Origin: Aequitasia blattaphilus
GTDB lineage: Bacteria > Bacillota > Clostridia > Lachnospirales > Lachnospiraceae
DNA: 47,159 bases
Assembly: GCF_024721305.1 (NCBI RefSeq)
Contig: NZ_JAMXOD010000020.1
Location: forward strand, 1 to 47,159
Reading direction: 5' to 3'
Below, in pieces: positions 7,268 to 30,216 of this stretch. Made by a program: the position numbers and the translations under genes. Under the pieces are notes generated by a model. That model was not told where the DNA came from and ran no database searches. It saw only the letters and a list, made by a program, of their open reading frames with translations. Within the stretch, counting starts at the first letter, position 1; each line of letters begins with the position of its first letter.

Positions 7268-7270
7268 TTT

Positions 7271-9949: not shown

Positions 9950-9988
9950 TAAACAACACCCTCCTTTCGACAATATGATGTCTTAAGA

Positions 9989-10029
9989 AGAATACCACCA
10001 CACTCTTGGTTTGTCAACATGTTGTCTAA
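9989..10029 (-). promoter_or_regulatory. ABC operon promoter with MarR operator
   Basis: On the minus strand TTGACA (10012-10017) is followed after 17 bases by TATTCT (9989-9994). The plus-strand sequence TTTGTCAACATGTTGTCTAA (10010-10029) covers the -35 box and contains the palindrome CAACATGTTG. Nearly the same 20 bases cover the -35 box of the marR promoter (10689-10708). A weaker copy (CAATATGATGTC) lies at 9971-9982. I infer that the MarR protein represses this operon here. Confidence 0.75.
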
Positions 10030-10033
10030 AAAG

Positions 10034-10069
10034 ACAAAAAAACATCCGCCCTTAGAAATGACGGATGTT
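10034..10069 (-). terminator. Rho-independent terminator of marR
   Basis: On the minus strand an ACATCCG stem (10042-10069) is followed by a run of seven or more T (A on the plus strand, 10034-10041). It lies five bases past the marR stop and separates it from the ABC promoter. Confidence 0.75.
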
Positions 10070-10073
10070 GTAT

Positions 10074-10631
10074 TTATTTACTATTTCTTTTTTGAGAAAA
10101 CGTTTCTAACGCAGATTTGAAGTGCTGCATTTCGGAAGGAGAGTTAATAATTTCCCGCCCTGTGTCTTCAAAGCCGTCTTGCTTATTACCATCAAAGCAA
10201 TAGAGTTTTTTTACCATTTTCCAGAAGCTCTCTAATTCAGAAGTGTTAAACTCATGAAAAATATCTGCCATAAAATGAATTGCTTTTTCCGAACATTCAA
10301 TCGTTTTTTGCTTGCCGCTTTCTGTAAGTGTTACGTTTGTAGCACGCTTGTCTTTTTTGCTGGGAAATGAAGAAAGATATCCTAATTTTTCAATGCTTGC
10401 TACCATACGATTTGCATTTTGTTTGCTGGTTCCAAGTTTACGTGCGATATTATTAATTGTCGTTTCTTCTTCAGGTAAATGTAAAATGGCTATAATGGTC
10501 ATATATTGTCTAAATGTTAAACCCTCAAGATAATTATCACCAGTAATTTGCAATTTGTTTATGAGAGAGAACATAGTGGCATAAGCCTGTTGCATTAAAA
10601 ATAGGTCATGAAGTTCTTTTTCAAAACTCAT
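10074..10631 (-). CDS. MarR family transcriptional regulator
   Basis: The 185-residue protein has the winged-helix core TTINNIARKLGTSKQNANRM (recognition helix, about residues 57-76) followed by the wing with FPSKKDKRATNVTLTESG, the typical MarR D-x-R-x-x-x-x-x-LT pattern. It has a C-terminal extension of about 45 residues beyond the usual length. It is transcribed toward the ABC operon, and both promoters share an operator-like sequence, so it probably represses itself and the exporters until a drug or peptide binds. CTAGGAGGTAC precedes the start. Confidence 0.85.
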   Translation of the reverse strand: MSFEKELHDLFLMQQAYATMFSLINKLQITGDNYLEGLTFRQYMTIIAILHLPEEETTINNIARKLGTSKQNANRMVASIEKLGYLSSFPSKKDKRATNVTLTESGKQKTIECSEKAIHFMADIFHEFNTSELESFWKMVKKLYCFDGNKQDGFEDTGREIINSPSEMQHFKSALETFSQKRNSK

Positions 10632-10667
10632 AAAGTACCTCCTAGCTCAGTGTATATGAATGCTTTT

Positions 10668-10708
10668 AGAATATCAGTTGCATTGCGATTTGTCAACATG
10701 ATGTCCAA
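10668..10708 (-). promoter_or_regulatory. marR promoter with operator
   Basis: TTGACA (plus-strand 10691-10696) and TATTCT (10668-10673) are 17 bases apart on the minus strand. TTTGTCAACATGATGTCCAA (10689-10708) covers the -35 box and differs from the ABC operon site at only two of 20 positions. Confidence 0.75.
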
Positions 10709-10767
10709 TGAGGTTATTTATGCCAGCGGCAGATGTAACTTTAGTATCATTTATAACAAAAGCAACT

Positions 10768-12135
10768 TCAAAGCCAGCGGGCAATCAGAGAGTAGATAAA
10801 GACAGAACCTTTCTGATTCTGTACCTGGGGAAAATAACGGTAATCCTCGCCGTATTGCTCCAACTCACTGCAGGGCAAAGTGTATTCTACATAGGTTTGT
10901 GCCATATCCACAGGATTGAATGAATCTTCATCTAAATCCATGGAGTAAACAACCGACTGAAACCATATTTCCTCAATGGCTAAGCCCTCATCCTGATATG
11001 GTTTTATTGCCCTGGAAAGAGCGGGAACGTTAACCTGTAGAGCTTCTTCTGAAACCGTGTAGACTTGGTCTGCTACATCCGTCGGTAAAGGTAACATGGT
11101 GTATTCAAGCTCACCTAAATCATTTGTTTCGGCAAGCATCATATTCACATCAAACTTTTTGTAGCTGGAATCATTTGGAATAAACCAACTGGCAGGATGG
11201 TGGTATAACCACAAAAGGGACAGAGCCAAGGCGGCAAAAGAAATAATAGAAACAACAGCATAGCCAGGCTTTTCGGGCTTGAAATGATAGAGAGCCTCTA
11301 AACGACTGGCAATAGTACGGTAGGAATCAGAAAAGCTGAGTCCTTTCACAACAGTTTGCGTAGAACACTCTTTTATCAGTAATTCACCGTAGGTATTTCG
11401 ACCGTTATTCTGAAAACCTATGACCTGATTATCACAAAGTATTTCAATATCCCTCTTGAAGGGCCTATCAAACAGACGTAATACCCAAATAAAACATGAA
11501 ATCAAGCTAAAAAGACACAACTTCATTGTGTCACGATTTTTAATATGTACCATTTCGTGAAGAAGGAGTAACTCCAATTCGAGGGAGGTATATTTTTTTT
11601 CATATTCAGCAGGCAGCAGAATTGTTTTTTTGAACATGCCATAGGATACGGGAGATCCAACCCACTCTACGGCAGCAATATGGATGTACTTTTCTTGTAA
11701 GCCAACGGTGTTTGCCACACGAAGCTTGAGATTGCCACGATCTCTATAAGGTGCAGCGGCAGCAATCAGTTGTTTGATTCGCCAAGTATGAACGATGAAC
11801 TTTGCCAAACGAAGCATAGAAATAGAGAGCCAAAATGCAACTGCTATAAATAGCACAGCACGCCACTCTTGATGAATTGCACGATAAATCGGCAGCTTTA
11901 TAGAATCATTCCACTTACAGCAAGATAAGGGAAAACTAAGGAGGAGCCCATACCATACATAATAATTTGTACGTGCTCCCATATGATTGTGAAATTTTTT
12001 CTGAACAAACCGAATTCCTTGATAGATTAAAAGGCAGTAAATCGATAGAAGCAGACATTTCACAACAAGGGCAACCAGAAGAAAAAAAACTGGCATAGTA
12101 CAGATTGTATTGATTTGGCCTAATATGCTATTCAT
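10768..12135 (-). CDS. M56 family metallopeptidase (BlaR1/MecR1-like sensor)
   Basis: The 455-residue membrane protein has N-terminal helices (about 15-40, 55-75, 90-110), then the zinc protease motif LLLHEMVHIKNRD with H193, E194 and H197, a further helix pair, and one helix at about 300-322 followed by ~130 extracytoplasmic residues. In BlaR1/MecR1 this protease relieves repression by BlaI/MecI. The C-terminal part has no recognisable penicillin-binding motifs, so the signal is probably not a beta-lactam. The gene overlaps the BlaI-like gene by eight bases, which fits the sensor-repressor pairing. Confidence 0.85.
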   Translation of the reverse strand: MNSILGQINTICTMPVFFLLVALVVKCLLLSIYCLLIYQGIRFVQKKFHNHMGARTNYYVWYGLLLSFPLSCCKWNDSIKLPIYRAIHQEWRAVLFIAVAFWLSISMLRLAKFIVHTWRIKQLIAAAAPYRDRGNLKLRVANTVGLQEKYIHIAAVEWVGSPVSYGMFKKTILLPAEYEKKYTSLELELLLLHEMVHIKNRDTMKLCLFSLISCFIWVLRLFDRPFKRDIEILCDNQVIGFQNNGRNTYGELLIKECSTQTVVKGLSFSDSYRTIASRLEALYHFKPEKPGYAVVSIISFAALALSLLWLYHHPASWFIPNDSSYKKFDVNMMLAETNDLGELEYTMLPLPTDVADQVYTVSEEALQVNVPALSRAIKPYQDEGLAIEEIWFQSVVYSMDLDEDSFNPVDMAQTYVEYTLPCSELEQYGEDYRYFPQVQNQKGSVFIYSLIARWL

Positions 12136-16330: not shown

Positions 16331-16553
16331 TTATAACAAGTGGTTGTCTATTTTTTTCATTAATTCATTTACGTTTATCGGTTTTGAAATATGATCATTC
16401 ATACCAGCCTCTAAGCATCTCTCAACATCTTCTGAAAATGCATTGGCTGTCATGGCAAGAATTGGAATATTCGATGCATTTTCGCATTCGCTTTCCCGGA
16501 TTCTTCGGGTAGCTTCGTAGCCATCCATTTCGGGCATCTGTACATCCATAAGA
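16331..16553 (-). pseudogene. Hybrid sensor kinase, 3' fragment (receiver domain end)
   Basis: This is the last 73 codons of the kinase gene whose 5' part lies at 27557-30216, cut off by the mobile element. It encodes LMDVQMPEMDGYEATRRIRE, the phosphate-accepting Asp (D890 of the rebuilt protein), PILAMTANAF and a final helix SKPINVNELMKKIDNHLL. Joining 30216-27557, one GA dinucleotide and 16551-16331 gives 2,883 bases in one frame, with DLILMDVQMPEMDG across the join. By itself this piece has no start signal. Confidence 0.95.
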
Positions 16554-16575
16554 TGTAGGACGGATTTTGCGGACA
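16552..16575 (+). mobile_element. Left element end (attL)
   Basis: The GA crossover dinucleotide is 16552-16553. Eleven bases further in, TTTTGCGGACA (16565-16575) is the inverted copy of TGTCCGCAAAA at the right end (27533-27543), which also lies eleven bases from its GA. Large serine recombinases of the TnpX group use GA targets and leave GA at each end. Confidence 0.85.
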
Positions 16576-16609
16576 TTCAAAATAAAAAAGAATGTGGAGG
16601 TAACAGACA

Positions 16610-16984
16610 ATGGCAAAATCATTATTTGAGGAACTGGGCGGCAAATACGAAAGGCAAGGGGATTATTTGATACCGTGCTTAACTGTACCCGCCGAAGAAG
16701 AACAGGCAATAGGCATCTGGGGGCAACGGCATTTAGATTATCTAAAACAGTACCGTAAAGTTACATACACCAATCTTCTTACAAGCGGCAGGCTAAACGC
16801 CTACCTTGCCGACATCAACAGACAGGCACAGGAACGCTTTGAAAGGCTCATAGAGGGTATGAAACAGGCACAGGGCATAACGGAACAGCTAAAGGCAGAA
16901 AACGCCTTAGAATGGACAGGATGCCTCAATAACATAAGGGCTTGTGCGAGGGAGATTGTGGAAAAGGAAATTATTTTTGCATAA
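16610..16984 (+). CDS. tnpV: TnpV, transposon-encoded protein
   Basis: The 124-residue protein matches TnpV of Tn4451-type elements: N-terminal LFEELGGKYERQGDYLIPCL, then GIWGQRHLDYLKQYRKVTY and a long helical C-terminus with ERFERLIEGMKQAQGITEQL. Its role is not settled. It is the first gene at the left end, 55 bases from the crossover, with GTGGAGGTAACAG before the start. In the excised circle it would follow tnpX directly and could be read from the same transcript. Confidence 0.8.
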   Translation: MAKSLFEELGGKYERQGDYLIPCLTVPAEEEQAIGIWGQRHLDYLKQYRKVTYTNLLTSGRLNAYLADINRQAQERFERLIEGMKQAQGITEQLKAENALEWTGCLNNIRACAREIVEKEIIFA

Positions 16985-16994
16985 ACAGATGATT

Positions 16995-17024
16995 AGTGGC
17001 AGGGGGAAATCCTGCCGCTTTTTC
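16995..17024 (+). terminator. Terminator after tnpV
   Basis: AGTGGCAGG (16995-17003) pairs with CCTGCCGCT (17011-17019) with one G-T pair, followed by TTTTT. Confidence 0.75.
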
Positions 17025-17041
17025 TGCTTTAGTTTGTCAGC

Positions 17042-17070
17042 TTGACAAATAAAGGGTTAAGGAATATAAT
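17042..17070 (+). promoter_or_regulatory. tet(O) promoter
   Basis: TTGACA (17042-17047) and TATAAT (17065-17070) are 17 bases apart, both consensus. It matches the promoter known upstream of ribosomal-protection tet genes and lies 281 bases before the tet(O) start, with an attenuator leader in between. Confidence 0.9.
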
Positions 17071-17102
17071 TAGATTCAGTATTATACAAGGAGTTAATAA
17101 AT

Positions 17103-17126
17103 ATGCGGCAAGGTATTCTTAAATAA
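17103..17126 (+). CDS. tet(O) leader peptide MRQGILK
   Basis: Seven codons and a stop follow AAGGAG (17088-17093). The frame overlaps GGTATTCTTAAATAAACTG, which can pair with CAGTTTAAGAATAC near 17200-17217. In tet(M)-type genes, translation of a leader in this region links tetracycline-slowed ribosomes to read-through of the downstream terminators. I infer the same here. Confidence 0.6.
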   Translation: MRQGILK

Positions 17127-17278
17127 ACTGTCAATTTGATAGTGGGAACAAAAAGTAGCAGTCCCGTTTCACTTTTAATATGGGGCTTAGTTTTTTGTAC
17201 CCAGTTTAAGAATACTTTTATCATGTAATTTTATATGCCCGAAAACATATAAGTGTTTTGGGGCTATTGGAGTTATTT

Positions 17279-17314
17279 ACCCAGTGATAGGAGTATTTAT
17301 CACTGGGTATTTTT
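17279..17314 (+). terminator. Attenuator terminator before tet(O)
   Basis: ACCCAGTGATA (17279-17289) pairs perfectly with TATCACTGGGT (17298-17308), followed by ATTTTTA. This hairpin, with the earlier leader pairing, is the tetracycline-responsive attenuator arrangement of the tet(M)/tet(O) group. Confidence 0.8.
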
Positions 17315-17350
17315 ATGCCCTTTTTTGGGTGTTGATAGGAGGAAAATCAC

Positions 17351-19270
17351 ATGAAAATAATTAACTTAGGCATTCTGGCTCACGTTGACGCAGGAAAGAC
17401 AACATTAACGGAAAGTTTATTGTATACCAGTGGTGCAATTGCAGAACTAGGGAGCGTAGATGAAGGCACAACAAGGACAGATACAATGAATTTGGAGCGT
17501 CAAAGGGGAATCACTATCCAGACAGCAGTGACATCTTTTCAGTGGGAGGATGTAAAAGTCAACATTATAGATACGCCAGGCCATATGGATTTTTTGGCGG
17601 AAGTATACCGTTCTTTATCCGTATTAGACGGAGCAGTATTATTAGTTTCTGCAAAGGATGGCATACAGGCACAGACCCGTATACTGTTTCATGCACTACA
17701 GATAATGAAGATTCCGACAATTTTTTTCATCAATAAAATTGACCAAGAGGGGATTGATTTGCCAATGGTATATCGGGAAATGAAAGCAAAGCTTTCTTCG
17801 GAAATTATAGTGAAGCAAAAGGTTGGGCAGCATCCCCATATAAATGTAACGGACAATGACGATATGGAACAGTGGGATGCGGTAATTATGGGAAACGATG
17901 AACTATTAGAGAAATATATGTCAGGGAAACCGTTTAAAATGTCAGAACTGGAACAGGAAGAAAACAGGAGATTCCAAAACGGAACGTTATTTCCCGTTTA
18001 TCACGGAAGCGCTAAAAACAATCTGGGGATTCGGCAGCTTATAGAAGTAATTGCCAGTAAATTTTATTCATCAACGCCTGAAGGTCAATCTGAACTATGC
18101 GGGCAGGTTTTTAAGATTGAATATTCAGAGAAAAGGCGGCGTTTTGTTTATGTGCGTATATATAGCGGAACATTGCATTTGAGGGATGTTATTAGAATAT
18201 CTGAAAAAGAGAAAATAAAAATCACAGAGATGTGTGTTCCGACAAACGGTGAATTATATTCATCCGATACAGCCTGCTCTGGTGATATTGTAATTTTACC
18301 AAATGATGTTTTGCAGCTAAACAGTATTTTGGGGAACGAAATACTGTTGCCGCAGAGAAAATTTATTGAAAATCCTCTCCCTATGCTCCAAACAACGATT
18401 GCAGTAAAGAAATCTGAACAGCGGGAAATATTGCTTGGGGCACTTACAGAAATTTCAGATGGCGACCCTCTTTTAAAATATTATGTGGATACTACAACGC
18501 ATGAGATTATACTTTCTTTTTTGGGGAATGTGCAGATGGAAGTCATTTGTGCCATCCTTGAGGAAAAATATCATGTGGAGGCAGAAATAAAAGAGCCTAC
18601 TGTTATATATATGGAAAGACCGCTTAGAAAAGCAGAATATACCATCCACATAGAAGTCCCGCCAAATCCTTTCTGGGCTTCTGTCGGGTTGTCCATAGAG
18701 CCGCTCCCTATTGGAAGCGGAGTGCAGTATGAAAGCAGAGTTTCACTTGGATATTTAAATCAATCGTTCCAAAATGCGGTTATGGAGGGGGTTCTTTATG
18801 GCTGCGAGCAGGGGCTGTATGGATGGAAAGTGACAGACTGTAAAATCTGTTTTGAATATGGATTGTATTATAGTCCTGTAAGTACCCCCGCAGACTTTCG
18901 GCTGCTTTCCCCTATCGTATTGGAGCAGGCTTTAAAAAAAGCAGGGACAGAACTATTAGAGCCATATCTCCACTTTGAAATTTATGCACCGCAGGAATAT
19001 CTCTCACGGGCGTATCATGATGCTCCAAGGTATTGTGCAGATATTGTAAGTACTCAGATAAAGAATGACGAGGTCATTCTGAAAGGAGAAATCCCTGCTA
19101 GATGTATTCAAGAATACAGGAACGATTTAACTTATTTCACAAATGGGCAGGGAGTCTGCTTGACAGAGTTAAAAGGATACCAGCCAGCTATTGGTAAATT
19201 TATTTGCCAACCCCGCCGCCCGAATAGCCGTATAGATAAGGTTCGGCATATGTTCCACAAGTTAGCTTAA
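17351..19270 (+). CDS. tet(O): Tet(O), ribosomal protection tetracycline resistance protein
   Basis: The 639-residue EF-G-like GTPase has the P loop AHVDAGKTT (10-18), switch [14 protein letters not shown], and the C-terminal domain IV/V that removes tetracycline from the ribosome. The sequence agrees with my recollection of Tet(O) throughout, including [19 protein letters not shown] where Tet(W) and Tet(M) differ, so I see no sign of a tet(O/W) or tet(O/32) mosaic. Length is the standard 639. GGAGGAAAATCAC precedes the start. Expression is probably controlled by the leader attenuator. Confidence 0.97.
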
Positions 19271-19321
19271 CAGCTTGCAAAAGTCATATAAAATGAGATT
19301 TGAAAGGATTAGAGACTAATT

Positions 19322-19495
19322 ATGATGAAATGCGAATGGATATTGTGTCCTGTTTGTGGGAGCAAAACCCGTAATAAAATTAGGAAGGACACTGTTTTGG
19401 AGAATTATCCCCTTTATTGTCCAAAATGCAGACAAGAAAGATTGATTAAAGTTGACAACTTGAAGATAACTGTCATCAAAGAGCCAGACGCTTAA
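19322..19495 (+). CDS. Cysteine-rich KTR-type small protein
   Basis: The 57-residue protein starts MMKCEWILCPVCGSKTRNKI and has a second pair in YPLYCPKCRQERLI: two CxxC knuckles typical of a zinc ribbon. A small Cys-rich KTR protein of this kind commonly follows ribosomal-protection tet genes on conjugative elements. It is 51 bases downstream of tet(O) and before a terminator, so the two are probably co-transcribed. Function is unknown. Confidence 0.8.
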   Translation: MMKCEWILCPVCGSKTRNKIRKDTVLENYPLYCPKCRQERLIKVDNLKITVIKEPDA

Positions 19496-19500
19496 GACGC

Positions 19501-19547
19501 AGAGCCGATGAAATTGTGGAACAATTCACGAATCATCGGCTCTTTTT
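19501..19547 (+). terminator. Terminator of the tet(O) unit
   Basis: AGAGCCGATGA (19501-19511) pairs with TCATCGGCTCT near 19532-19542, followed by TTTTT. It lies directly after the Cys-rich gene. Confidence 0.85.
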
Positions 19548-19836
19548 GTTTCGTATTTGAAAGAACAAACTCACCAAATAAAAAAAACGATATTCGGGTG
19601 GGTTATTTTGTTATACCCTAAATTACCCTCTGAATTTGTTTTTAAATTTGGAGGGATTTTTTTATGTCCTTTTTTCGGGCAGTTATCTATCTGCTCATAC
19701 GAAGCAAAATTTATCAATACATAGCATATCAGAGAACGGCAGGAAACCAGTTAAAAAAATTTCTGCCAGTGCAACGGTACTTCTCACCTTGAAAGTAGAA
19801 GTACAATCTCCATACAATAGAATTACTATTTCCTAT

Positions 19837-19876
19837 AACCGTAAAGGTCACAGAGCCTTTGCGGTTTTTCTTTTGT
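19837..19876 (+). terminator. Terminator/attenuator before sigma-like gene 1
   Basis: AACCGTAAAGG (19837-19847) pairs with CCTTTGCGGTT (19856-19866) with one mismatch and is followed by TTTTCTTTT. It lies about 110 bases before the start of the next gene. Confidence 0.7.
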
Positions 19877-19982
19877 CGATTTTTGTTGGAAAGTGCCGTA
19901 GGGCTGTTTCTGATATGCGGTGTCGTTCTCCGCCTCTCCATCTGGATTTTTTACATTTCAAAAATTCAGATGGGAGGTATTT

Positions 19983-20495
19983 ATGGTGAAATATGCACCA
20001 AGAAAGGTATATATCAGAGAAAGTGGCGGCTATGTGGAATTATCCTACACGGAGTTCTGCCGTTGCAGGGAATCCGACCAGACCTATATGGACAAGCTGT
20101 TTATCCCCATTCAAGGCTGTCTGCTTGAAGTCGTGAGGGAGCAATACACAGACTTCTACCGTGACAAGGAACGGTGGCGTTATCTGCAAAAATTAGATAC
20201 AAAGAATAGACTGCTATCTCTCGACGGATTTACGGACAGCGAGGGGAATCCTCTGGACTTTATCACTGATGAAGCGGTGGACATTGCAGAAACCGTTGTC
20301 AATGCGGTCATGGTGGACAGGCTGAAAGCCGCCCTGCCTTTGCTGTCGGATAGTGAACAGGAGCTGATACAGGCAATCTTTTTTGACGGACTTTCCGAGC
20401 GTGAAGTCGGGGCGAGGTTGGGCATAACCCAGAGCGTTGTAAACAAACGCAAAGCCAGAATCCTAATAAAACTAAGAAAGATAATAGAAAATTAA
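19983..20495 (+). CDS. Sigma-70-like regulator 1
   Basis: The 170-residue protein ends in a region-4 type helix-turn-helix: SEQELIQAIFFDGLSEREVG then ARLGITQSVVNKRKARILIK. The N-terminal part resembles the sigma-like proteins common on Gram-positive conjugative elements and lacks a clear region 2. GGGAGGTATTT sets the start at 19983. A terminator-like hairpin lies after the stop. It probably controls transfer or excision genes. Confidence 0.7.
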   Translation: MVKYAPRKVYIRESGGYVELSYTEFCRCRESDQTYMDKLFIPIQGCLLEVVREQYTDFYRDKERWRYLQKLDTKNRLLSLDGFTDSEGNPLDFITDEAVDIAETVVNAVMVDRLKAALPLLSDSEQELIQAIFFDGLSEREVGARLGITQSVVNKRKARILIKLRKIIEN

Positions 20496-20509
20496 AATTT
20501 AAGGCGTTC

Positions 20510-20550
20510 AGCCCCCTTGTTTTTTCCTTTGGGAAGATGAGGGGGCTTTT
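20510..20550 (+). terminator. Terminator between sigma-like genes 1 and 2
   Basis: AGCCCCCT (20510-20517) pairs with AGGGGGCT (20540-20547), followed by TTTCT. The T-run is short. Confidence 0.65.
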
Positions 20551-20589
20551 CTCTGCCCTCTCAATCAATTCTGATTGGAGGAAGTAAGA

Positions 20590-21015
20590 ATGGCATACAA
20601 CCACGGACGGGAGGACAGGAAATGGCGTATCTGGAAAGAAGCGGAGGAAAAGCTGCTGCGTGAGTGCGGCGTTGATGAAGCGACCATTGAGCAGATACGC
20701 ATGGCGGACAGGGCAGACTTCAATTCCAACAGGCGGTTTTACCGATGGACGAATGACGTTGCGGAATATCTTGAGGACATGGCAGGCAGGGAGCGGCAGG
20801 CGGAAGTGGGTACGGTTGCGGAGTTACTGGAAGAGATTGAGAGCGAAAATCTCTATCAAGTATTAGTCACGGTGGACGGGCGTACCTTGAAAATCGTCCT
20901 GCTGAAAATGCAGGGGTATTCCACAAAGGAGATTGCCCCGCTTGTGCATTTGACGACTGGTGCCATCTATGCGAGGTTAGACCATCTGCGGAAGAAGCTG
21001 CGGAAAATTTTATAG
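20590..21015 (+). CDS. Sigma-70-like regulator 2
   Basis: The 141-residue protein has a C-terminal helix-turn-helix in MQGYSTKEIAPLVHLTTGAI then YARLDHLRKKLRKIL. The N-terminal half is charged and rich in Glu, Arg and Trp (GREDRKWRIWKEAEEKL). ATG 20590 is preferred over an upstream TTG because GGAGGAAG lies six bases before it. It belongs with its neighbours to a set of three sigma-like proteins. Confidence 0.65.
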   Translation: MAYNHGREDRKWRIWKEAEEKLLRECGVDEATIEQIRMADRADFNSNRRFYRWTNDVAEYLEDMAGRERQAEVGTVAELLEEIESENLYQVLVTVDGRTLKIVLLKMQGYSTKEIAPLVHLTTGAIYARLDHLRKKLRKIL

Positions 21016-21098
21016 CTTCTAAAACAGCCTGCCATCCTGCGGGCTACTGGGTGAGGGATGGAAATCCCCTCACTCATTTTTTGCAGGAGGACAACAGG

Positions 21099-21851
21099 AT
21101 GGCATACAGGGTTAAGGCATACACGCTTCGGGAGGAATCCACGGAAAGCGGCACAAGGTATTTTATCAGCTTTAAGGACGGGCAGGGCAAATCCCACGAG
21201 TTGGAAGTGTCGGAACAGTTCTTTATGGAGTTTCGGCAGATGGAGCGCAGGAACAGGAATCTTTTCTAATGGGACGAGCGGCACAGGGAGTTTAACGAGG
21301 TATGGGACGAAACCCTTTACAGACGGGCGTTGCGTGTGCCTAAGAGCCTTGATGAACGCATGGTTGAGGAAGAACGGAATGAAACGCTCTATAAGGCGGT
21401 TGGGAGCCTTCCAGAGATACAAAGGCGGCGTTTCCTGCTCTACTACGAGTATGAGTTCAATTTTTACCAAATCGCCGCTATGGAGCATTGCACCGCTTCG
21501 GCAATACAGAAATCTGTTGCGATTGCAAAGGAGAAAGTAAAGGCGGAAATTGAAGAAATATCTCCAACCGTGACCGACACCGCCCGAAAAAGAAATCTGT
21601 TTTTTATTTGTGTGGGATTGGCGGCATTACATACTCTCACTTTTTTCCGTGGGAGTAAATCTATTTTTAAGGAGGTCAACGCCTATGTGCAACGAAAACA
21701 AAGACACCGCCCGAAAGGAGGAAAGCCATGCAGAAGTTACAGACAGTCAACGCCGAAACGCTCCTTTATGAACCGCTTGAGAAACCATCCTTTGTGGTGG
21801 ACAGCCTTATCCCGACAGGCTTATCGCTGTTCTGCGGCTCACAGAAGATAG
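21099..21851 (+). pseudogene. Sigma-70-like regulator 3, interrupted by a stop codon
   Basis: The frame from ATG 21099 encodes MAYRVKAYTLREESTESGTR and stops at TAA 21267-21269. The same frame continues without a shift as WDERHREFNEVWDETLYRR and then the region-4 helix-turn-helix FYQIAAMEHCTASAIQKSVA. The upstream part ends RRNRNLF, so a CAA to TAA change is the simplest explanation. The downstream half could restart at GTG/TTG codons near 21330. Past about 21640 the frame overlaps the next genes and its end is uncertain. Either a pseudogene or a split protein. Confidence 0.65.
21685..21771 (+). CDS. Possible 28-residue protein overlapping the ATPase start
   Basis: ATG 21685 follows AAGGAGGTCAACG, a strong ribosome binding site, and encodes MCNENKDTARKEESHAEVTD and a short tail ending at 21771. 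It overlaps the RepA-like gene start by 44 bases, so it could serve translational coupling. There is no recognisable domain. Confidence 0.4.
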   Translation: MCNENKDTARKEESHAEVTDSQRRNAPL

Positions 21852-22753
21852 GCAAAAGCTGGCTCATGCTGAAGCTATGCTTATGCGTGTCGCAGGGAAT
21901 CCCTTTATGGGATATGCCGACAATGGAGGGCGATGTGCTTTACCTCTGCCTTGAGGACACGTTCTGCCGCATACAGGACAGGTTATTTCGTTTGACGGAC
22001 GAAGCAAGCGGGCGGCTCCACTTTGCCGTGGCAAGCTGCAAGCTGTCAGACGGTCTTATCGTGCAGCTTGAAGATTATCTGAAAGATTACCCAGACAGCA
22101 GGCTCATTGTCATTGATACCTTGCAGAAAGTCCGTACAGCTTCAAAAGACAATGCCTATGCAAGCGACTATGGGGACATCTCCCTCATCAAAGACTTTGC
22201 CGACAGGCACTCTCTGGCGGTCATTGTCGTACACCACATCCGAAAGCAGAATGACAGCGACGTGTTCAACAAGGTGTCTGGGACGACAGGATTAACGGGG
22301 AGTGCGGACGCTACCTTTGTTCTGGAAAAGGAGAAACGTGCGTCTGACACCGCCAAGCTGTATGTGACGGGCAGGGACACGCCTTATCAGGAATACACGC
22401 TGCGTTTCCGTGATTGCCGTTGGGAGCTTGTGGAGCGGAAAACGCAGGAGCAGCTTGCGAAAGAAACGATACCAGATGTCCTTTTTCGGTTGGTGGATTT
22501 TATGAGGGATAAGGAAGAATGGATAGGCACGGCAACGGAACTGTTAGCCGCTATGGGGGAAACGGAAACCATACCCACGGTGATTACGAAATGGCTGAAT
22601 GAATACCGCACCACATTTTTAAGCGAGAACCGTATCTGCTACCAGTACAGCCGCAGGAAAGACGGCAGGCGGATTGCCCTTGCAAGGAGGGCGGGTGACA
22701 GCGGTGATGGTGGTGACAGCGATATTAGGATACCCCCCTGTTACTGTCATTGA
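21728..22753 (+). CDS. RepA-like AAA/RecA-fold ATPase
   Basis: The 341-residue protein has Walker A GSQKIGKSW (37-45), Walker B RLIVIDTLQKV, and the AVIVVHHIRKQ and GLTGSADATFVLEK segments of the RepA/RSF1010-type hexameric helicases. On mobilizable elements such proteins help replicate or process the excised circle. AAAGGAGGAAAGCC precedes the start. The last 20 residues (AGDSGDGGDSDIRIPPCYCH) are encoded by the first copy of the 43-bp repeat, so the gene end and a DNA site coincide. Confidence 0.75.
   Translation: MQKLQTVNAETLLYEPLEKPSFVVDSLIPTGLSLFCGSQKIGKSWLMLKLCLCVSQGIPLWDMPTMEGDVLYLCLEDTFCRIQDRLFRLTDEASGRLHFAVASCKLSDGLIVQLEDYLKDYPDSRLIVIDTLQKVRTASKDNAYASDYGDISLIKDFADRHSLAVIVVHHIRKQNDSDVFNKVSGTTGLTGSADATFVLEKEKRASDTAKLYVTGRDTPYQEYTLRFRDCRWELVERKTQEQLAKETIPDVLFRLVDFMRDKEEWIGTATELLAAMGETETIPTVITKWLNEYRTTFLSENRICYQYSRRKDGRRIALARRAGDSGDGGDSDIRIPPCYCH
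22693..22735 (+). repeat. 43-bp repeat, copy 1 (direct)
   Basis: It starts GGGTGACAGCGGTGATGG and ends AGGATACCC. It matches copy 2 at 39 of 43 positions and lies inside the 3' end of the RepA-like gene. Confidence 0.85.
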
Positions 22754-22790
22754 CGCTTAAAGCCATGTAAAGCTGGCGGCTCTGCCCTGC

Positions 22791-22833
22791 GGGTGACAGC
22801 AGTGACGGTGGTGACAGTGATTTTAGGATACCC
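22791..22833 (+). repeat. 43-bp repeat, copy 2 (direct)
   Basis: It starts GGGTGACAGCAGTGACGG and ends AGGATACCC. It is followed closely by the left arm of the 16-base inverted repeat of the oriT region. Confidence 0.85.
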
Positions 22834-22857
22834 TGCCGCTGTCATCCCTACGGGAGA

Positions 22858-23006
22858 ACACCCCGTAAACGCAAAATGCAGGCGTGAGATTTACTCGCCC
22901 TTTTCGGTCGTGTAAAACCACCCCTGCGGTCAGAAAAATCATTCCGATTTTTCCGACTGCGTTTACAGGGTGTAACACACTACACTTTGCCCTGCAAAGT
23001 CGTGTG
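22858..23006 (-). other. oriT: Candidate origin of transfer (oriT) for the MobV relaxase
   Basis: On the minus strand TAGTGTGTTA (22973-22982) equals the nick-site core of MobV-type oriTs (pMV158 MobM cuts TAGTGTG/TTA), placing the nick between 22976 and 22975. Beside it is the expected hairpin: ACTTTG (22984-22989) with CAAAGT (22995-23000), flanked by CACAC (22976-22980) and GTGTG (23002-23006). A 16-base inverted repeat, ACACCCCGTAAACGCA (22858-22873) and its partner (22958-22973), matches at 15 positions. Transfer would start toward the ATPase and tet(O) and bring the relaxase gene in last. Confidence 0.75.
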
Positions 23007-23115
23007 CCAGACGTTCCCTCTGGACTCCCTTAAGGCAGGGCTGTGCCCTGCTATCCTACGCCTTACGGCTTCGGATAAAAGAATGGCGGCATGACGGTGA
23101 CGGCTCTTGCGAGGG

Positions 23116-23158
23116 GGGTATCCCAAAAACACCGTCATCATCGACATGACCGTCATGC
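23116..23158 (-). repeat. 43-bp repeat, copy 3 (inverted, diverged)
   Basis: In reverse orientation it ends TTTTGGGATACCC, identical to copy 4 over those 13 bases, and keeps TGACGGT motifs in the rest. About 30 of 43 positions match copy 4. Confidence 0.65.
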
Positions 23159-23193
23159 AGGGGGTGAGGGTGACAGTTGCGGCAGTCGGCAGG

Positions 23194-23236
23194 GGGTATC
23201 CCAAAACTGCTGTCACCACCGTCACCGCTGTCACCC
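23194..23236 (-). repeat. 43-bp repeat, copy 4 (inverted)
   Basis: In reverse orientation it starts GGGTGACAGCGGTGACGG and ends GGGATACCC, matching copy 1 at 38 of 43 positions. It lies 41 bases before the relaxase start. Confidence 0.85.
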
Positions 23237-23277
23237 CAAAGGACGGTCACCCGCCGAAAGAAAGGAGGAATCCGCCT

Positions 23278-24243
23278 ATGCCTTATGCAATCCTGCGTTT
23301 CCAGAAACGAAAAGCGGGCGGCGTTGCGGCTTGTGAACGCCACAACGAGCGGAAGAAAGAAGCCTACAAAAGCAACCCAGATATAGATATGGAACGCTCT
23401 AAAAACAATTACCATCTCATAGCACCACCAAAGTACACCTACAAGAAAGAGATTAACCGCATGGTAGCCGAAGCGGGGTGCAGGACAAGGAAAGACAGCG
23501 TGATGATGGTGGAAACGCTCATCACAGCTTCACCAGAATTTATGAACCAGTTACCGCCCGAAGAACAAAAAGCGTATTTCCAGACGGCTCTTGACTTCAT
23601 TTCGGAGCGTGTTGGAAAGCAGAATATCCTCTCCGCTGTCGTCCATATGGACGAGAGAACGCCCCATATGCACCTCTGCTTTGTGCCGATTACGCCAGAC
23701 AATAAGCTGTCAGCGAAAGCTATCTTAGGCAACCAGAAATCATTATCCGAGTGGCAGACCGCCTACCATGAGCGGATGTCCTCACGGTGGAATCAGCTTG
23801 AACGGGGGCAGTCCTCAATGGAAACCAAGCGGAAACACGTCCCCACATGGCTCTATAAATTAGGCGGCAGGCTTGATAAACAGTATGAAGAAATCGTGTC
23901 TGCCCTATCCGACATCAACGCCTTTAACGCAGGGAAGAAAAGGGATAAAGCGTTAGATTTACTCTCTGCATGGCTGCCAGACGTGGAGAAATTCTCTAAG
24001 GAAATCGGGAAACAGCAGGCGTATATCGACAGTTTGAAAGAGAGAATTGGGCAGGAATCAGACTATGCGGGGCGTATGCGTGATGAAAAGTACGAGCAGG
24101 AACTAAAGGTGCAGAAAGCGAATCAGAAGATATTTGAATTGCAGAGAACCAACGAGCAGATGGGGCGGCTGCTGTCAAAAATACCGCCCGAAGTGTTGGA
24201 AGAATTGCAGAAAAATCATAGAAGCAGAGCGAAAGAAAGGTAG
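23278..24243 (+). CDS. MobV family relaxase (Pre/Mob)
   Basis: The 321-residue protein has the MobV motifs: motif I near VAACERHNERKK, motif II EINRMVAEAGCRTRKDSV followed by MVETLITASPEF, and the metal-binding HMDERTPHMH (H123, D125, E126, H130, H132). The C-terminal third is a coiled coil, as usual. ATG 23278 is chosen because AAAGGAGG lies upstream and the family starts MPYAILRFQKRK; the longer frame from 23107 is encoded by the repeats. It should nick the oriT candidate about 300 bases upstream and mobilize the excised circle. Confidence 0.9.
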   Translation: MPYAILRFQKRKAGGVAACERHNERKKEAYKSNPDIDMERSKNNYHLIAPPKYTYKKEINRMVAEAGCRTRKDSVMMVETLITASPEFMNQLPPEEQKAYFQTALDFISERVGKQNILSAVVHMDERTPHMHLCFVPITPDNKLSAKAILGNQKSLSEWQTAYHERMSSRWNQLERGQSSMETKRKHVPTWLYKLGGRLDKQYEEIVSALSDINAFNAGKKRDKALDLLSAWLPDVEKFSKEIGKQQAYIDSLKERIGQESDYAGRMRDEKYEQELKVQKANQKIFELQRTNEQMGRLLSKIPPEVLEELQKNHRSRAKER

Positions 24244-24251
24244 ATATGTGA

Positions 24252-25106
24252 ATGAAGAAACAGGATTTTAAGGTGTTAAAGACCAAAGACTTGTACCCGT
24301 TCCCCGACAATCCGTTTCATGTGGCAGAAGATGAAACACTGTCAGAGTTAGCGGAAAGCATCAAGGAATTTGGCATTGTCACGCCGATAATCACACGCCC
24401 GAAAGAGGACGGGGACGGTTATGAAGTGATTGCAGGACAGCGGCGTGTCCGTGCTTCTGAACTTGCAGGGATAAATACCGTGCCTGCGTTTGTCCTGCCC
24501 TTAGACCGTGACCGAGCCATCATCACCCTTGTAGACAGCAATTTGCAGCGTGAGAATATCCTGCCATCGGAGCGGGCGTTTGCTTACAAGATGAAATCCG
24601 AAGCCATGAAGCGGCAGGGTTTCCGCACAGACTTAACCTCGTCACAAGTTGTGACGAAGTTGCGGACGGACGACAAGGTGGCACAGGGCTTCGGCGTGGG
24701 CAGGATGACCGTGCAGCGTTTTATCCGCCTGACGGAACTGATACCGCCGATTTTGCAGATGGTGGACGAGGGGAAAATCGCCCTCACGCCTGCGGTGGAA
24801 CTGTCCTTCTTGAAGAAAGACGAGCAGGAAAACCTCTTTGCCACGATGGAGAGCGAAGAAGCAACGCCCTCACTCTCACAGGCACAGCGGATGAAACAGT
24901 TAAGCCAGAGCGGGCGGCTTGACATGGATACGATATTTGCGATTATGACGGAGGAAAAGGGCAACCAGAAAGAAACCTTGAAAATCAACACAAGCAAGCT
25001 GAAAAAATACTTTCCGAAGAACACAACGCCGAAGCAGATGGAGGAAACCATCATCAAACTTTTGGAGCGTGAGTTGCAGAGGAAACGCAACCGTGACAGC
25101 CGCTAA
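24252..25106 (+). CDS. ParB/Spo0J-like protein
   Basis: The 284-residue protein has the ParB N-terminal domain (YPFPDNPFHVAEDETLSELA, then the CTPase-type motif VIAGQRRVRASELAG at about residues 59-73), a helix-turn-helix region around VAQGFGVGRMTVQRFIRLTE (about 141-160), and a charged C-terminus. No ParA gene is nearby, so it probably acts as a regulator or maintenance factor rather than in classic partition. It starts eight bases after the relaxase stop and is probably co-transcribed. Confidence 0.8.
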   Translation: MKKQDFKVLKTKDLYPFPDNPFHVAEDETLSELAESIKEFGIVTPIITRPKEDGDGYEVIAGQRRVRASELAGINTVPAFVLPLDRDRAIITLVDSNLQRENILPSERAFAYKMKSEAMKRQGFRTDLTSSQVVTKLRTDDKVAQGFGVGRMTVQRFIRLTELIPPILQMVDEGKIALTPAVELSFLKKDEQENLFATMESEEATPSLSQAQRMKQLSQSGRLDMDTIFAIMTEEKGNQKETLKINTSKLKKYFPKNTTPKQMEETIIKLLERELQRKRNRDSR

Positions 25107-25151
25107 TCTTCTTTTTTCGGGAAGTAAATACAGAGAGTTGAGGTATGGAGA

Positions 25152-25382
25152 ATGAGAGAAATCCAGTATGAAATCGTAAAGGAAATCGCAGTATTGTCTA
25201 CGGGCGACAGTGGCTACACAAAGGAAATCAATCTCATTTCATGGAATGGGAAAGAGCCGAAGTATGACATCCGCAGCTTTTCCCCGAACCGTGAAAAGTG
25301 CGGCAAGGGAATCACGCTGAACGCTGATGAAGCGGCGGCACTCCTTAAAGCATTACAGAAAGAATTAAACAGCGAGGATTAA
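25152..25382 (+). CDS. PC4/YdbC-like single-stranded DNA-binding protein
   Basis: The 76-residue protein matches the YdbC/PC4 pattern: EINLISWNGKEPKYDIRSFS, then REKCGKGITLNADEAAALLK. Such proteins are small dimers that bind single-stranded DNA. Within this element it may protect or process the transfer strand. Its stop codon overlaps a possible start of the next frame (TAATG). Confidence 0.8.
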   Translation: MREIQYEIVKEIAVLSTGDSGYTKEINLISWNGKEPKYDIRSFSPNREKCGKGITLNADEAAALLKALQKELNSED

Positions 25383-25453
25383 TGGTATCTGATTGGCAGG
25401 GCGGGGACATTTCCAAACTCTTCCCTGCCCTGTCTGGAAAGGAAGATTTAAGT

Positions 25454-25645
25454 ATGGGCGAGGATAAGAAAGCAGATAAAAAGAGAAAGCGTATCGTGCC
25501 AAAAGCACCAGTGCAGATGATAATCAGCCGTGAATATGTCGGCACACAGACCGTTACAGAAGCGTTTGTCCCGATTATCTCCGAGGATATTCGGAAGAAG
25601 ATTGCCGAGGGCGACACCTTCGACAATGAGGGGCTGTCCGCTTAG
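25454..25645 (+). CDS. Small transposon protein, possibly TnpW-like
   Basis: The 63-residue protein has a lysine-rich start (MGEDKKADKKRKRIVPKAP) and a body with REYVGTQTVTEAFVPIISED, which recalls the small TnpW-type proteins of Tn4451-like elements (low certainty). ATG 25454 follows AAAGGAAG at a good distance; an alternative start at 25382 overlaps the previous stop and adds 24 residues. It lies just before tnpX. Confidence 0.55.
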   Translation: MGEDKKADKKRKRIVPKAPVQMIISREYVGTQTVTEAFVPIISEDIRKKIAEGDTFDNEGLSA

Positions 25646-25699
25646 AATGTACGCAATGGGACATGAAAACAGATAGGACAGATACGGAGGTTTTACAGT

Positions 25700-27556
25700 A
25701 TGGCAGGAATCAAAGAAGAAAAGAAAATCTATTTAGTCGGCATTTATTGCCGCTTATCTAAAGACGATGGTACGGATAACGAGAGTGCGAGCATTGCGAC
25801 ACAGAAATCCATCCTCACGGATTATGTGAAAAAGCAGGGATGGCACATAGCAAAAACGTATGTGGACGATGGTTATTCTGGTACAAATTTCCAAAGACCA
25901 AGTTTCCAGAATATGATAAAAGACATTGAAAGCGGTCTGATAAACTGCGTGATTACGAAAGATTTATCCCGTCTGGGGAGAAACTATCTTGATTGTGGGT
26001 TATATCTGGAAGTTTTCTTCCCAGAGCATAACGTGAGGTATATAGCGGTCAATGACGGCGTAGATACCTTGAATAAATCTGCTATGGACATCACGCCTTT
26101 CCGCAACATTTTAAACGAAATGTATGCCGCTGACATATCTGTTAAGATAAAATCGGCATATCGGGCGAGGTTTCAACAGGGGAAATTCATGGGAACTACC
26201 GCCCCTTATGGCTATATCAAAGACCCTGCCGACCACAACCATCTGCTGATAGATGATAAAGTGGCACATGTTGTAAAAGAGATATTCGACCTTGCATTAA
26301 AAGGGAATGGAGTTGCCAAAATTTGCAGACATCTTAATAAACAGCATATCCTACGCCCTGCCGCTTATGCGGCGGAGCGTGGCGAAACAGGCTTTGAACG
26401 TCATTTTGAGGGGAACGAGGACAAACGCTATATTTGGAGTGGGAACAGCGTGAGGAGCATTTTAAGAAGCCCGATATATGCGGGAAATCTTGTAGGCTAC
26501 AAACGGATTGCCGCCAATATGAAAAGCAAGAAACGCCCCTCTAAGCTGCCCGAAGAATGGGAAGTGATACCCAATACCCATGAGGGAATAGTCACGCAGG
26601 AGGAATTTGATATTGTCCAACAGCTTATTACAAGTCGTAGGCTTCCACAGAACAAGGGAGGATTTGTAAATATTTTTGCAGGCGTTATCAAGTGTGTGGA
26701 CTGCGGATGTGCTCTGCGGGCAATGAACGTACACAGGAGGAAACGCCCAGAGATTATCGACTGTGTACAGTATTCATGTAATAATTATGCAAGAAACGGA
26801 AGAAGCGAGTGTAGTGCCCACAATATAGAAGCAAGGGATTTATTCAATGCCGTTCTTGCCGACATCAACTGTTTTGCGGATATGGCAGTGAATGATGAAA
26901 AGGCGGTCAGGGCCATAGAAAAGCGGCTCACGGAAACAGACCAGAGCAGGGCGAAAGCATTAGAGAAAGAACGTAAGAAGCTGAACAAACGCCTTGCGGA
27001 ACTGGACAGGCTGTTTTCCTCTCTCTACGAGGATAAGGTCATGGAGCGTATTACCGAGCGGAATTTTGAGATGATGTCGGGGAAATACCAGAAAGAGCAG
27101 CTTGAAATTGAAGCAAGGCTGAAAGAGGTGACGGAAACTCTTAATGAAAGCTACGAGAAATCACGGGGAATCCGTGACTTCCTCGCCCTTATCCGAAATT
27201 ATCAAGGCTTAAAAGAACTGGATGCAACAGTTATAAACGCACTCATAGACAAGATACTTGTTTCGGAGCGTGAGAAGATGGCAGACGGAACAGTGAAGCA
27301 GGAAATCAAGATTTACTATAAATTCATCGGCTTTGTCGATGAATTACATATCATACCTACAAAACGGTGGGCAGCAATGCCCGCTAAAAATTGTACGGTG
27401 TGCGGCGTTGAATATGTCCCGGGCTCTGGTGCATCAAGGTATTGTCCTGCTTGTGCCAAGAAGATACGGAGGGAGAAATCAAACGAGAGCAAACGCAGGA
27501 GCAGAGAACAGAAAAGGATAGCATGTATGAACTGTCCGCAAAAAATGACCGACTGA
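25700..27556 (+). CDS. tnpX: Large serine recombinase, TnpX type
   Basis: The 618-residue protein has the resolvase domain with catalytic S20 in IYCRLSKDD, Arg pairs in TKDLSRLGRNYLD, a recombinase domain (GYIKDPADHNHLLIDDKVAH), a zinc ribbon (CVDCGCALRA with later YSCNNY and C in RSECSAH), a long coiled coil (about 415-500) and a DUF4368-like end. A further C-terminal ribbon has CTVCGVEY and CPACAKK. It should excise and insert the element at GA dinucleotides. CGGAGGTTTTACAG precedes the start. Its TGA stop (27554-27556) contains the right crossover GA. Confidence 0.92.
   Translation: MAGIKEEKKIYLVGIYCRLSKDDGTDNESASIATQKSILTDYVKKQGWHIAKTYVDDGYSGTNFQRPSFQNMIKDIESGLINCVITKDLSRLGRNYLDCGLYLEVFFPEHNVRYIAVNDGVDTLNKSAMDITPFRNILNEMYAADISVKIKSAYRARFQQGKFMGTTAPYGYIKDPADHNHLLIDDKVAHVVKEIFDLALKGNGVAKICRHLNKQHILRPAAYAAERGETGFERHFEGNEDKRYIWSGNSVRSILRSPIYAGNLVGYKRIAANMKSKKRPSKLPEEWEVIPNTHEGIVTQEEFDIVQQLITSRRLPQNKGGFVNIFAGVIKCVDCGCALRAMNVHRRKRPEIIDCVQYSCNNYARNGRSECSAHNIEARDLFNAVLADINCFADMAVNDEKAVRAIEKRLTETDQSRAKALEKERKKLNKRLAELDRLFSSLYEDKVMERITERNFEMMSGKYQKEQLEIEARLKEVTETLNESYEKSRGIRDFLALIRNYQGLKELDATVINALIDKILVSEREKMADGTVKQEIKIYYKFIGFVDELHIIPTKRWAAMPAKNCTVCGVEYVPGSGASRYCPACAKKIRREKSNESKRRSREQKRIACMNCPQKMTD
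27533..27556 (+). mobile_element. Right element end (attR)
   Basis: TGTCCGCAAAA (27533-27543) is the inverted copy of the left-end TTTTGCGGACA, eleven bases from the GA crossover at 27555-27556. The sequence encodes the last residues and stop of tnpX. Confidence 0.85.
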
Positions 27557-30216
27557 ATAAGATCATAGTGGGACGAGTCCGCGTGATACTTTTCTACAGC
27601 TTGAGCACCATTATTTGCGAATTCAAGTGTAATTCCAGTAGGATGAAGTAAAGCATGTATAATTTCTTGATTGATTTCAATATCTTCCGCCATCAATATG
27701 GTTTTATTAGGCCAACTATAGTTGGATTTTGTGTCAACAGAAGAAATTTTTTCCTTTGCACCACGTGTTAACTCCACAATTGTATTAAAAAGTGAAGAAG
27801 GTAATAAGGGTTTTGCAAGAAAACGTGTGATACCGATTTCAGTTGCTTGGGGTTTCAAATCACACCAGTCTGCCACAGAAATCATGATAACAATGGTCTC
27901 AGGAGGAACTATTTTTTGAATCGCTTCAGCGGTTTCGAGACCGTCCATGCCTGGCATCTTCCAGTCAAGGAAAATAATGTCATACGGTGATTGGCCTTGT
28001 ACAAGTTGAATTGCCTGAGGACCACTATTGGCGGTATGACATTGCATGTGAAAACCTGAAATAATCTGCTGGCAATATTCCAAAACGTCTGTGCTGTCAT
28101 CTACGACCAAGATACGTGTGTTTCTCAAATCTGGTAAATCCTTTGGAGGAATGATGCTGGGTCCACCAAGCTCTACCGGTGTTTCAAATATAAAGCGGGA
28201 GCCAGTACCTTCTTCGCTTTCTACCCATATCCTGCCACCCATTAAATCAATGATTTTACGGCAGATGGAAAGTCCAAGGCCTGTACCGCCAAACCGTCTG
28301 GTAATGCTGCCATCAGCTTGCTCAAAGGGCTGAAACAACTTATCCTGTTCCTCTAAGCTAATGCCAATTCCGGTATCCTGCACTTCAATTCGCAGGACAG
28401 CATTATCCTCATTCTGTTTTACAAAAGAAGAATGTAAGGTGATCGCACCATTTTCCGGAGTGAATTTAACTGCATTGGAAAGCAGATTTGTGACCACTTG
28501 TGTCAGACGCAGTTCGTCACTGATTAAGCATCGGTCAAAATTCGTATCCAGATTAAAGGAAAAATCAAGTCTCTTTTCATCTACACGAGGTTGTATTACG
28601 TTATATACATTCTGTAGCATCTTTTCGAAGTTGAACTCAGCATTTACAATTTCCATCTTGCCGGATTCAATTTTAGACAAGTCTAAAATGTCATTAATGA
28701 GACCTAGCAGCTGATGAGATGCTTGCTCTATTTTAGCAAGACAATAACGTATGCGCTGAGGGTCTTTTGCCGTCTTTGCAATCTCGTTCATACCAATAAT
28801 AGCATTCATTGGAGTTCGTATCTCATGGCTCATACGGGATAGAAAATCGGTTTTTGCCTGACTTGCTTGTTCTGCCTGTTCAATTGCTTCTTCTAATTTA
28901 AGCTGCATTTGCTGCATATCAGTCACATCTAAAGCAACACCAACGATGCCGTTTACAGTGCCGTCCAGTGTACGAAGAGGTGTTGTTTCACAAGCAAAAT
29001 GGAGATTTTCGATATCCGCATAATAGCTTTGGCTTCCAGAGGTAAATGTTGCATTATGCTTTTCCAGCAGACTTATTCCAGGTATCCCCTCTTCTGTTAA
29101 TAGCGTATTAATATTGGCACCCATCAGGCTATCCTTATGCACGCCAAGATCACTTAAAGCCTGCCCTTCAAATAAAGTGATATGATTGGATTTATCTACG
29201 GACCAGATAATACCAGGATAGCTGTTGACAATTTCACGAAGCTTTCCATAGGCATCATGAAGTTCATTTTCCATCTTGTTTTTTTCCAAGGTTGAGGACA
29301 TAATACTGCCAATGGTCTGGAGCATATTAAACTCACTCTCTGTCCAATAATGAGGGCCGCTGCCATAATCGGCACCTAGAAAGCCCCAAAACTGGCCATT
29401 GCACAATATGGGTAAGTCAGCAAAGGAATGGATTCCACTTTCTCGCTGGACACGATAAGCCTCACCAGTAAACTGAAAGGTGTCATCCACCGCAATATAA
29501 GGTCTTGTGGTAAGCTGAATAAACCCTTCATCGTCATCGTTGTAAGGAATATTCTGTAAGAGAGCTTTCGTTGAAGGAACGTCAGGTGCACACCATTCAT
29601 AGATTACACTGTAGGTCTTGTGCTCCAAGTCGTGTCGGAAAATAGAACAGCGGTCTACGTTCATAAAAGTTCCCAGCTCCTGTAAGACGTGATTAAATAG
29701 TTTGTCCAGAGAAGCATCGGAGTTTTTTGCAAAAGCAGAAGACAAATCGGTAATAAGCTTTTGCTGTTCTAATTGTATGGAGGCATGTTGGTCAATTGTA
29801 CGGAAGGATTCACCATATAATTCTTTTCGAAGTTTTCCCAAAGTCTCTGAAGTAATGCGTCGCACCGCAATGCTATATCCATGGAAATCTTCCATAGAAA
29901 ACGGAAGACTTTTTATTTGATACATTCCTGTTAATGGATCAGTATATACAGTTTCTACTCCCCCTTTTTTCTGGTTATGCTCATCTTTTAAAAGCTGCAT
30001 TACTTCGGTGCGAGAGTCATAAGGCAAAAAATTTTCAAAGGAAAGACTAATTAGGTTAACGGGTAAGATTTCTCCCGTAGCGCTTTGACATTTGTGGGCA
30101 TAACAGATTGTAAATAGTTCATCAGTAATGAATGCCCAATCACAAGCGGATTCTATTAGATCCAGCTGGTAATCTGGCATTATTTTAAAATCGTTAATGG
30201 CAGCAGTTCTGTGCAT
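27557..30216 (-). pseudogene. Hybrid sensor histidine kinase, 5' fragment interrupted by the element
   Basis: The intact gene would encode 960 residues; 887 codons remain here. The order is an N-terminal PAS-like part, a GAF domain (about 155-310), a PAS domain (about 325-440), HisKA with H464 in SRMSHEIRTPMNAIIG, HATPase with DTGIGIS and GGTGLGLSI, receiver 1 with D751 in FLDWKMPGMDG, and the start of receiver 2 (ILMAEDIEINQEI to SSHYDLI). There are no membrane helices. After the junction the frame runs about 79 codons antisense into tnpX to 27316, so a chimeric kinase lacking receiver 2 could still be made. AGAGGAG precedes the start. Confidence 0.93.

Follow-up and report, generated by a model that had tools for sequence, protein, structure and literature searches.

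Integrative mobilizable elements (IMEs) that carry tet(O) have been described in SNF2 and PPI of Streptococcus suis (PMC7168690), and the excerpted text of a second report on this species places IMEs between about 11 and 13.5 kb in size, which share a single Ser_3 integrase described as highly specific, in snf2 or ppi (PMC9815147). The classes in that scheme are defined by integrase and relaxase, the insertion site being customary and not defining, and 12 class 6 IMEs borne on integrative conjugative elements (ICEs) had identical Ser_3 integrases (PMC9815147). Large serine recombinases have also been described from other elements and, as far as the excerpts of the papers concerned go, TndX makes 2-bp staggered cuts at GA and leaves one GA on the circle (PMC3672683), Tn5397 prefers a Fic gene in C. 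difficile with only GA seen in B. subtilis (PMC4430133), Tn4451 inserts with low specificity at an identical 2-bp core (PMC5704250), elements like Tn4451/Tn4453 are widespread among Clostridiales from the guts of humans and swine (PMC9765467), and DUF4368 marks a clade of multi-targeting large serine recombinases, TndX-like transposases included (PMC10083194). Here, a 47,159-nucleotide stretch of Aequitasia blattaphilus DNA (contig NZ_JAMXOD010000020.1, positions 1 to 47,159; hereafter the window) was analysed, in which a tet(O) element occupies 16552..27556. The data leave very little doubt that a tet(O) IME of the IME_Class_6/TndX-like type entered a chromosomal hybrid histidine kinase gene by recombination across one GA. 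The element is of a known kind at a new site, and the wide target range described below is an additional, useful result.

The window element resembles IME_Class_6 of S. suis in several respects, since, in the excerpted description, many members of that class are ~11 kb, tet(O) is common among them, and TnpV, a serine integrase and a PF01076 relaxase are shared; the MOBV/PF01076 relaxase of the class (Coluzzi scheme) is present in the window element. An 11-bp inverted repeat, TTTTGCGGACA, found by sequence match at 16565..16575 (plus strand) and 27533..27543 (minus strand), is common to the window element and the S. suis IMEs for which it was described (PMC9815147), although the repeat and TnpV stand outside the class definition. 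The published sites of the class in these excerpts are snf2 or ppi, often on ICEs, whereas the window element has entered a kinase gene in a commensal gut bacterium. Its recombinase is 100% identical to copies in three loci (L044, L062 and L067) from S. suis, the species of the 12 ICE-borne IMEs mentioned above, and may belong to the Ser_3 type. Likeness to Tn5397 and TndX consists in a large serine recombinase (37.4% identical to annotated TndX over residues 13-544), GA at both ends and one target GA; however, the excerpted text describes Tn5397 as a 21-kb conjugative relative of Tn916 (PMC4430133), whereas the window element is mobilizable, 11 kb in length and carries tet(O). The window element also resembles Tn4451 and Tn4453, as excerpted, in being small and mobilizable and in having a MobV relaxase, a large serine recombinase and a 2-bp core (PMC5704250). 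The resistance gene of Tn4451 and Tn4453 is other than tet(O), and the likeness to TnpX is one of description, as the alignment was to TndX. With the multi-targeting DUF4368 recombinases (Cp36 and its kin), as excerpted, the family of the window element shares DUF4368 and the use of many target genes. The resistance gene of Tn5397 is tet(M), and Tn4451 carries a full set of tnp genes.

The whole element, with a GA at each end, measures 11,005 bp (plus strand), and 11,003 bp separates two minus-strand pieces of the kinase gene. The N-terminal piece (27557..30216, minus strand) runs from 30216 to 27557 as 2660 stop-free nucleotides, or 886 codons plus 2 nt, and encodes GAF, a weak PAS match (20.6 bits, below the Pfam cut-off), HisKA, HATPase_c, receiver 1 and the start of receiver 2. 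The C-terminal piece (16331..16553, minus strand), which includes the left GA, runs from 16553 to 16331 as 1 nt, 73 codons and a stop; it opens with LMDVQMPEMDG, matches Response_reg at profile positions 47-110 (E 1.3e-18) and supplies the rest of receiver 2. The original prediction held that deletion of 16554-27556 restores one frame of 960 codons plus stop through a single GA, and the codon arithmetic agrees (886 + 1 + 73).

In a genome of the same genus (G001), the right end of the element was absent and the kinase was uninterrupted. The two kinase pieces were searched against this genome separately: the upstream piece matched with 71% identity over residues 441-886 and 67% over residues 1-322, its match ending at nt 1474 of locus L005, while the match of the downstream piece (79% identity) began at nt 1470, such that exactly one codon of the G001 gene separates the two. 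The G001 DNA at the join, CCATGAGAACGACGTC, and the predicted empty site, CCATAAGAATAAGATC, are of equal length with no indel, the GA is in register, and 11/16 bases are identical. The comparison of the empty site with a relative lacking the element, originally proposed as a check, agreed with the predicted single-GA join. Moreover, the G001 protein (838 aa) contains GAF, HisKA, HATPase_c and two Response_reg stretches, consistent with the claim that a second receiver was lost in the window, where it is broken just before the Asp. The window kinase and the G001 gene align from residue 1, and no stop interrupts the frame before the join, which answers the concern that the kinase might also be split elsewhere. 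G001 is a diverged relative, with 67% nucleotide identity over 1161 bases. The G001 gene is flanked by GH127, GH43 and a phosphate transporter and the window gene by FeoB and HMA proteins and GH2, and synteny lends nothing to the comparison because these neighbours differ. In view of the divergence and the neighbours, the G001 kinase is taken as an ortholog or close paralog, and not as an identical locus in a strain of one species. As a separate observation, the G001 kinase (L157:8943-11459) lacks the region corresponding to residues ~323-440 of the window protein, which lies between GAF and HisKA and is the site of the weak PAS match.

The genome assembly consists of 60 contigs, and misplacement of an element contig into the kinase gene could in principle produce such an arrangement. 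This explanation is extremely improbable, as the reading frame of the kinase is maintained across both junctions, with exactly one codon left over and GA present, and as the genome holds a single recombinase copy at 100%, the three other matches being only 27-37% identical.

The placement of the element ends to the base, as originally predicted, was also seen in other replicons. Megablast analysis was performed with window positions 16550-27560, a query running 2 and 4 bases past the element ends, and two Enterococcus faecalis plasmid records (LR962153.1 and LR962508.1) matched at 100% over query 3-11007, equal to window 16552-27556, and not one base more. Among the best 80 of 226 loci with recombinase relatives, the full 11,005 bp was present at 100% in nine (L026, L029, L030, L041, L042, L047, L048, L049 and L059; titled Lachnospiraceae, Blautia, Sellimonas, Lachnoclostridium, Acetivibrio and Traorella), and 22 of the 80 had one full-length match at an identity of at least 99% (hand count from the table). 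The right-end pattern was detected in 25/398 genomes of the family, the window genome included. Element ends were then mapped in the loci from L024 on, excluding L001-L023 (kinase searches), L106 and L111 (the window itself) and L157-L158, which yielded 55 left ends (53 distinct flanks) and 115 right ends (100 distinct flanks). The crossover dinucleotide, located in the window at 16552..16553 (left) and 27555..27556 (right; no strand assigned to either), was GA at 49/53 distinct left ends and 95/100 distinct right ends, the others being TG (3 and 3) or AA (1 and 2). None of the mapped ends shared the host flanks of the window copy. Three genomes of the family, G034, G004 and G327, had insertion flanks in common with the loci L041 (Sellimonas caecigallum), L056 ('Lachnospiraceae bacterium') and L059 (Acetivibrio ethanolgignens), respectively, which points to Lachnospiraceae as the host family.

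These mapped ends also bear on whether the element arrived by homologous recombination, or inside a larger element, with the GA pair being coincidental. Pieces of the element do move by other routes, as left-end fragments (query 3-3084) occur alone in several Streptococcus phage records; nevertheless, such an arrival is very improbable here, because both ends in the window are the exact element ends seen beside many unrelated flanks, and because the identical plasmid copy (L104) has different, snf2, flanks, with the match halting at 16552 and 27556. Insertion of the element by its own recombinase is the reading adopted below. By analogy with TndX, the recombinase would cut GA with a 2-bp stagger in both circle and target and then join the ends, and the MobV relaxase may allow transfer of the circle by a helper conjugative system. 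The expected outcome is a protein in which the kinase core and receiver 1 stay and are followed by 80 element-encoded codons, receiver 2 losing the Asp and what follows.

Receiver 1 is whole in the window kinase (Response_reg at residues 702-812, Pfam), and receiver 2 retains its start and breaks off after ...HYDL, within the codon that follows. From this split codon, Leu-Met lead directly to the Asp in LMDVQMP, an Asp that we take to be the phospho-acceptor by the usual receiver pattern. The present frame continues into the element for 80 further codons and a stop, on the strand opposite to the recombinase gene (27316..27558, minus strand; element-derived except the first 1-2 bases), giving a predicted product of 966 aa. 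Receiver 2 is thus predicted to be deprived of its phospho-acceptor Asp and everything downstream of it. The truncated gene would not simply be dead, because the histidine kinase core and receiver 1 are intact in sequence, and any effect of the loss on the cell is putative. In the upstream piece, Kyte-Doolittle means over 19 residues peak at 1.29, with no clear membrane segment, consistent with the cytoplasmic location originally proposed. The insertion shows, to the base, how a tetracycline-resistance element that is shared widely can be seated in a commensal's chromosome, and it comes at a concrete cost, a truncated signalling protein.

To describe the target range of the element and its close relatives, flanks were assigned to snf2 by tblastn with pieces from L029 and from MN270279.1 annotated 'SNF2 family protein'; because a Pfam scan of the L029 snf2 piece returned no family, snf2 is identified here by similarity. 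After removal of one empty right flank (contig end), 46/99 right flanks were snf2 and 53/99 were other, the latter including flanks too short for tblastn (e.g., L146 with 48 bases, L147 and L028) as well as L112 and L063, which were not snf2 by tblastn. Left flanks comprised 25 snf2 and 28 other, and right ends of copies at an identity of at least 99% comprised 18 snf2 and 41 other; all of these counts refer to distinct sequences and not to independent genes. Pfam was run on nine of the 53 non-snf2 right-adjoining pieces, picked by length, and returned nine different families: type I restriction subunit R, ParB, lactate racemase, alcohol dehydrogenase, MCP, permease, PTS EIIC, nitroreductase and GH2 (for GH2, the insertion may precede the gene). 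No kinase or receiver was among these nine pieces. The integrase appears to be far less selective in its sites than the published account for S. suis states, and if the element enters many genes, searches confined to snf2 or ppi would overlook many carriers. Four distinct insertions lay in one ParB-type gene family (L026, L131/L041, L045 and L047), a second recurrent target beside snf2. One right-flank site was common to L032, L044 and L062; the L032 copy has an snf2 left flank and, on its right, the site of the S. suis loci L044 and L062, and it looks like a recombinant of two insertions.

The bases around the crossover followed a pattern. Non-snf2 right flanks had G at +5 in 38/51 and C at +8 in 40/51, and the left flanks mirrored this with C at -5 in 22/28 and G at -8 in 24/28; the target matrix was built without L112 and L063. 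The target is a degenerate dyad, GNYC-N4-GA-N4-GRNC, with GA as its core only. The presence of GA at both ends, originally attributed to the TnpX target rule, was confirmed, but the rule was refined in that GA is the core of a longer degenerate target and the recombinase compared was TndX. In the 36 loci with both ends, at least three of the four key bases were present at 18/19 non-snf2 and 17/17 snf2 sites, as against 93/4339 GA dinucleotides of window host DNA, an enrichment that is partly circular because the four key positions were picked from the same sites as their reported frequencies. The rule so obtained is testable. It is somewhat probable that this Ser_3/TndX-like integrase is multi-target and reads GNYC-N4-GA-N4-GRNC, and that the streptococcal snf2 bias arises from a conserved helicase stretch that fits the dyad well, together with the benefit of riding on ICEs.

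The kinase site itself fits three of the four key bases, with A replacing G at -8. However, several observations weigh against insertion into the kinase gene by this recombinase. The full-matrix score of the kinase site is 0.71, whereas each of the 19 leave-one-out sites scores 2.7 or more (2.7 being the lowest), and 131/4339 other GA sites of window host DNA equal or exceed 0.71; the kinase site is thus a poor one that the matrix would not have predicted. In addition, the uninterrupted gene comes from a diverged relative with other kinase neighbours, and a circular (or tandem) element junction was not found in the locus set searched, with 0 matches in viral contigs. Lastly, two S. suis relatives were tried for excision and neither excised, although in one the integrase gene was broken, according to the excerpted text of PMC7168690.

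One explanation for the use of such a site would be that the preferred snf2 site is absent from the genome and the element landed in the kinase gene instead, comparable to Tn5397 and the Fic gene. Indeed, no snf2 homologue was found in the A. blattaphilus genome (G000) by DNA search or by protein query, the same protein query being positive in 16/27 genomes, and TndX provides a precedent, with Fic preferred where present and only GA seen where it is absent, in the excerpt of PMC4430133. However, the 25 element-carrying genomes of the family, sorted by hand, comprised 16 with the element outside snf2 and 9 with it within snf2, and 7 of the 16 do have an snf2 homologue, in six cases with an open frame of at least 2400 codons. 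Nor were the remaining 9/16 genomes, which lack snf2, in excess over the family, in which 79/100 genomes lacked and 21/100 had an snf2 homologue (these 100 include some of the 25 carriers). Absence of snf2 is thus unnecessary for insertion elsewhere, because 7/16 non-snf2 carriers hold a homologue, and we consider it an unlikely reason for the kinase insertion. As a rule for insertion elsewhere, a missing snf2 is unsupported in view of these 7/16 counter-examples.

The recombinase stop codon, TGA (27554-27556), is composed of the last element base and the core GA, so that the right crossover dinucleotide forms the last two bases of the stop. Among the 115 right ends, the first in-frame stop lay exactly at the crossover in 96 GA-core copies and 1 AA-core copy, 30 codons earlier in 7 GA-core copies and 1 TG-core copy, and 49 codons earlier in two (one GA, one AA); two further TG-core copies stopped 5 codons earlier or, in L069, read 9 codons into the target, and no stop was returned for 6/115, probably because the stretch before the end was too short for the script. 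The crossover-formed stop was missing from all three TG-core right ends. The C-terminal end of the integrase depends on the target dinucleotide, because the crossover GA completes the stop codon, and this arrangement may be coincidental. A TG core instead of GA was seen at both ends in L069 and L088 and at the one mapped end in each of L102 and L115, and the core dinucleotide can apparently switch as a pair.

The element genes all lie on the plus strand and comprise tnpV (16610..16984; PF14198, E 3.4e-45), tet(O), encoding a ribosomal protection protein (17351..19270), a sigma-70 family factor (19920..20495; PF04545, E 1.1e-8), an AAA_25 ATPase (21728..22753; PF13481, E 5.5e-23), a MobV relaxase (23107..24243; PF01076, E 1.8e-59; NF041497), a ParB-like protein (24252..25106; PF02195, E 1e-18) and the large serine recombinase with DUF4368 (25700..27556; 618 aa; PF00239, PF07508, PF13408 and PF14287). 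The earlier naming of the resistance gene as tet(O) was upheld by NF033148 (1308 bits) and by the identical copy in LR962153.1, which was called tet(O) at 99.84%. The combination of Resolvase, Recombinase, zinc ribbon and DUF4368 domains with a GA crossover is that of a TndX/TnpX-type recombinase. One of the eight scanned element open reading frames (ORFs) had no Pfam family, and no transfer-pore gene was found in the Pfam scan of these eight, smaller ORFs lying outside the scan. From its gene content, with an integrase and a relaxase of its own, the element is classified as an IME. Within the window, no tRNA genes were found and the Rfam scan returned nothing at gathering scores. Finally, the left 3.1 kb of the element (16552-19633, tnpV and tet(O)) is found by itself in several records of Streptococcus phages, phi-m46.1 among them, so that for the tnpV and tet(O) fragment a second right boundary recurs near 19633.

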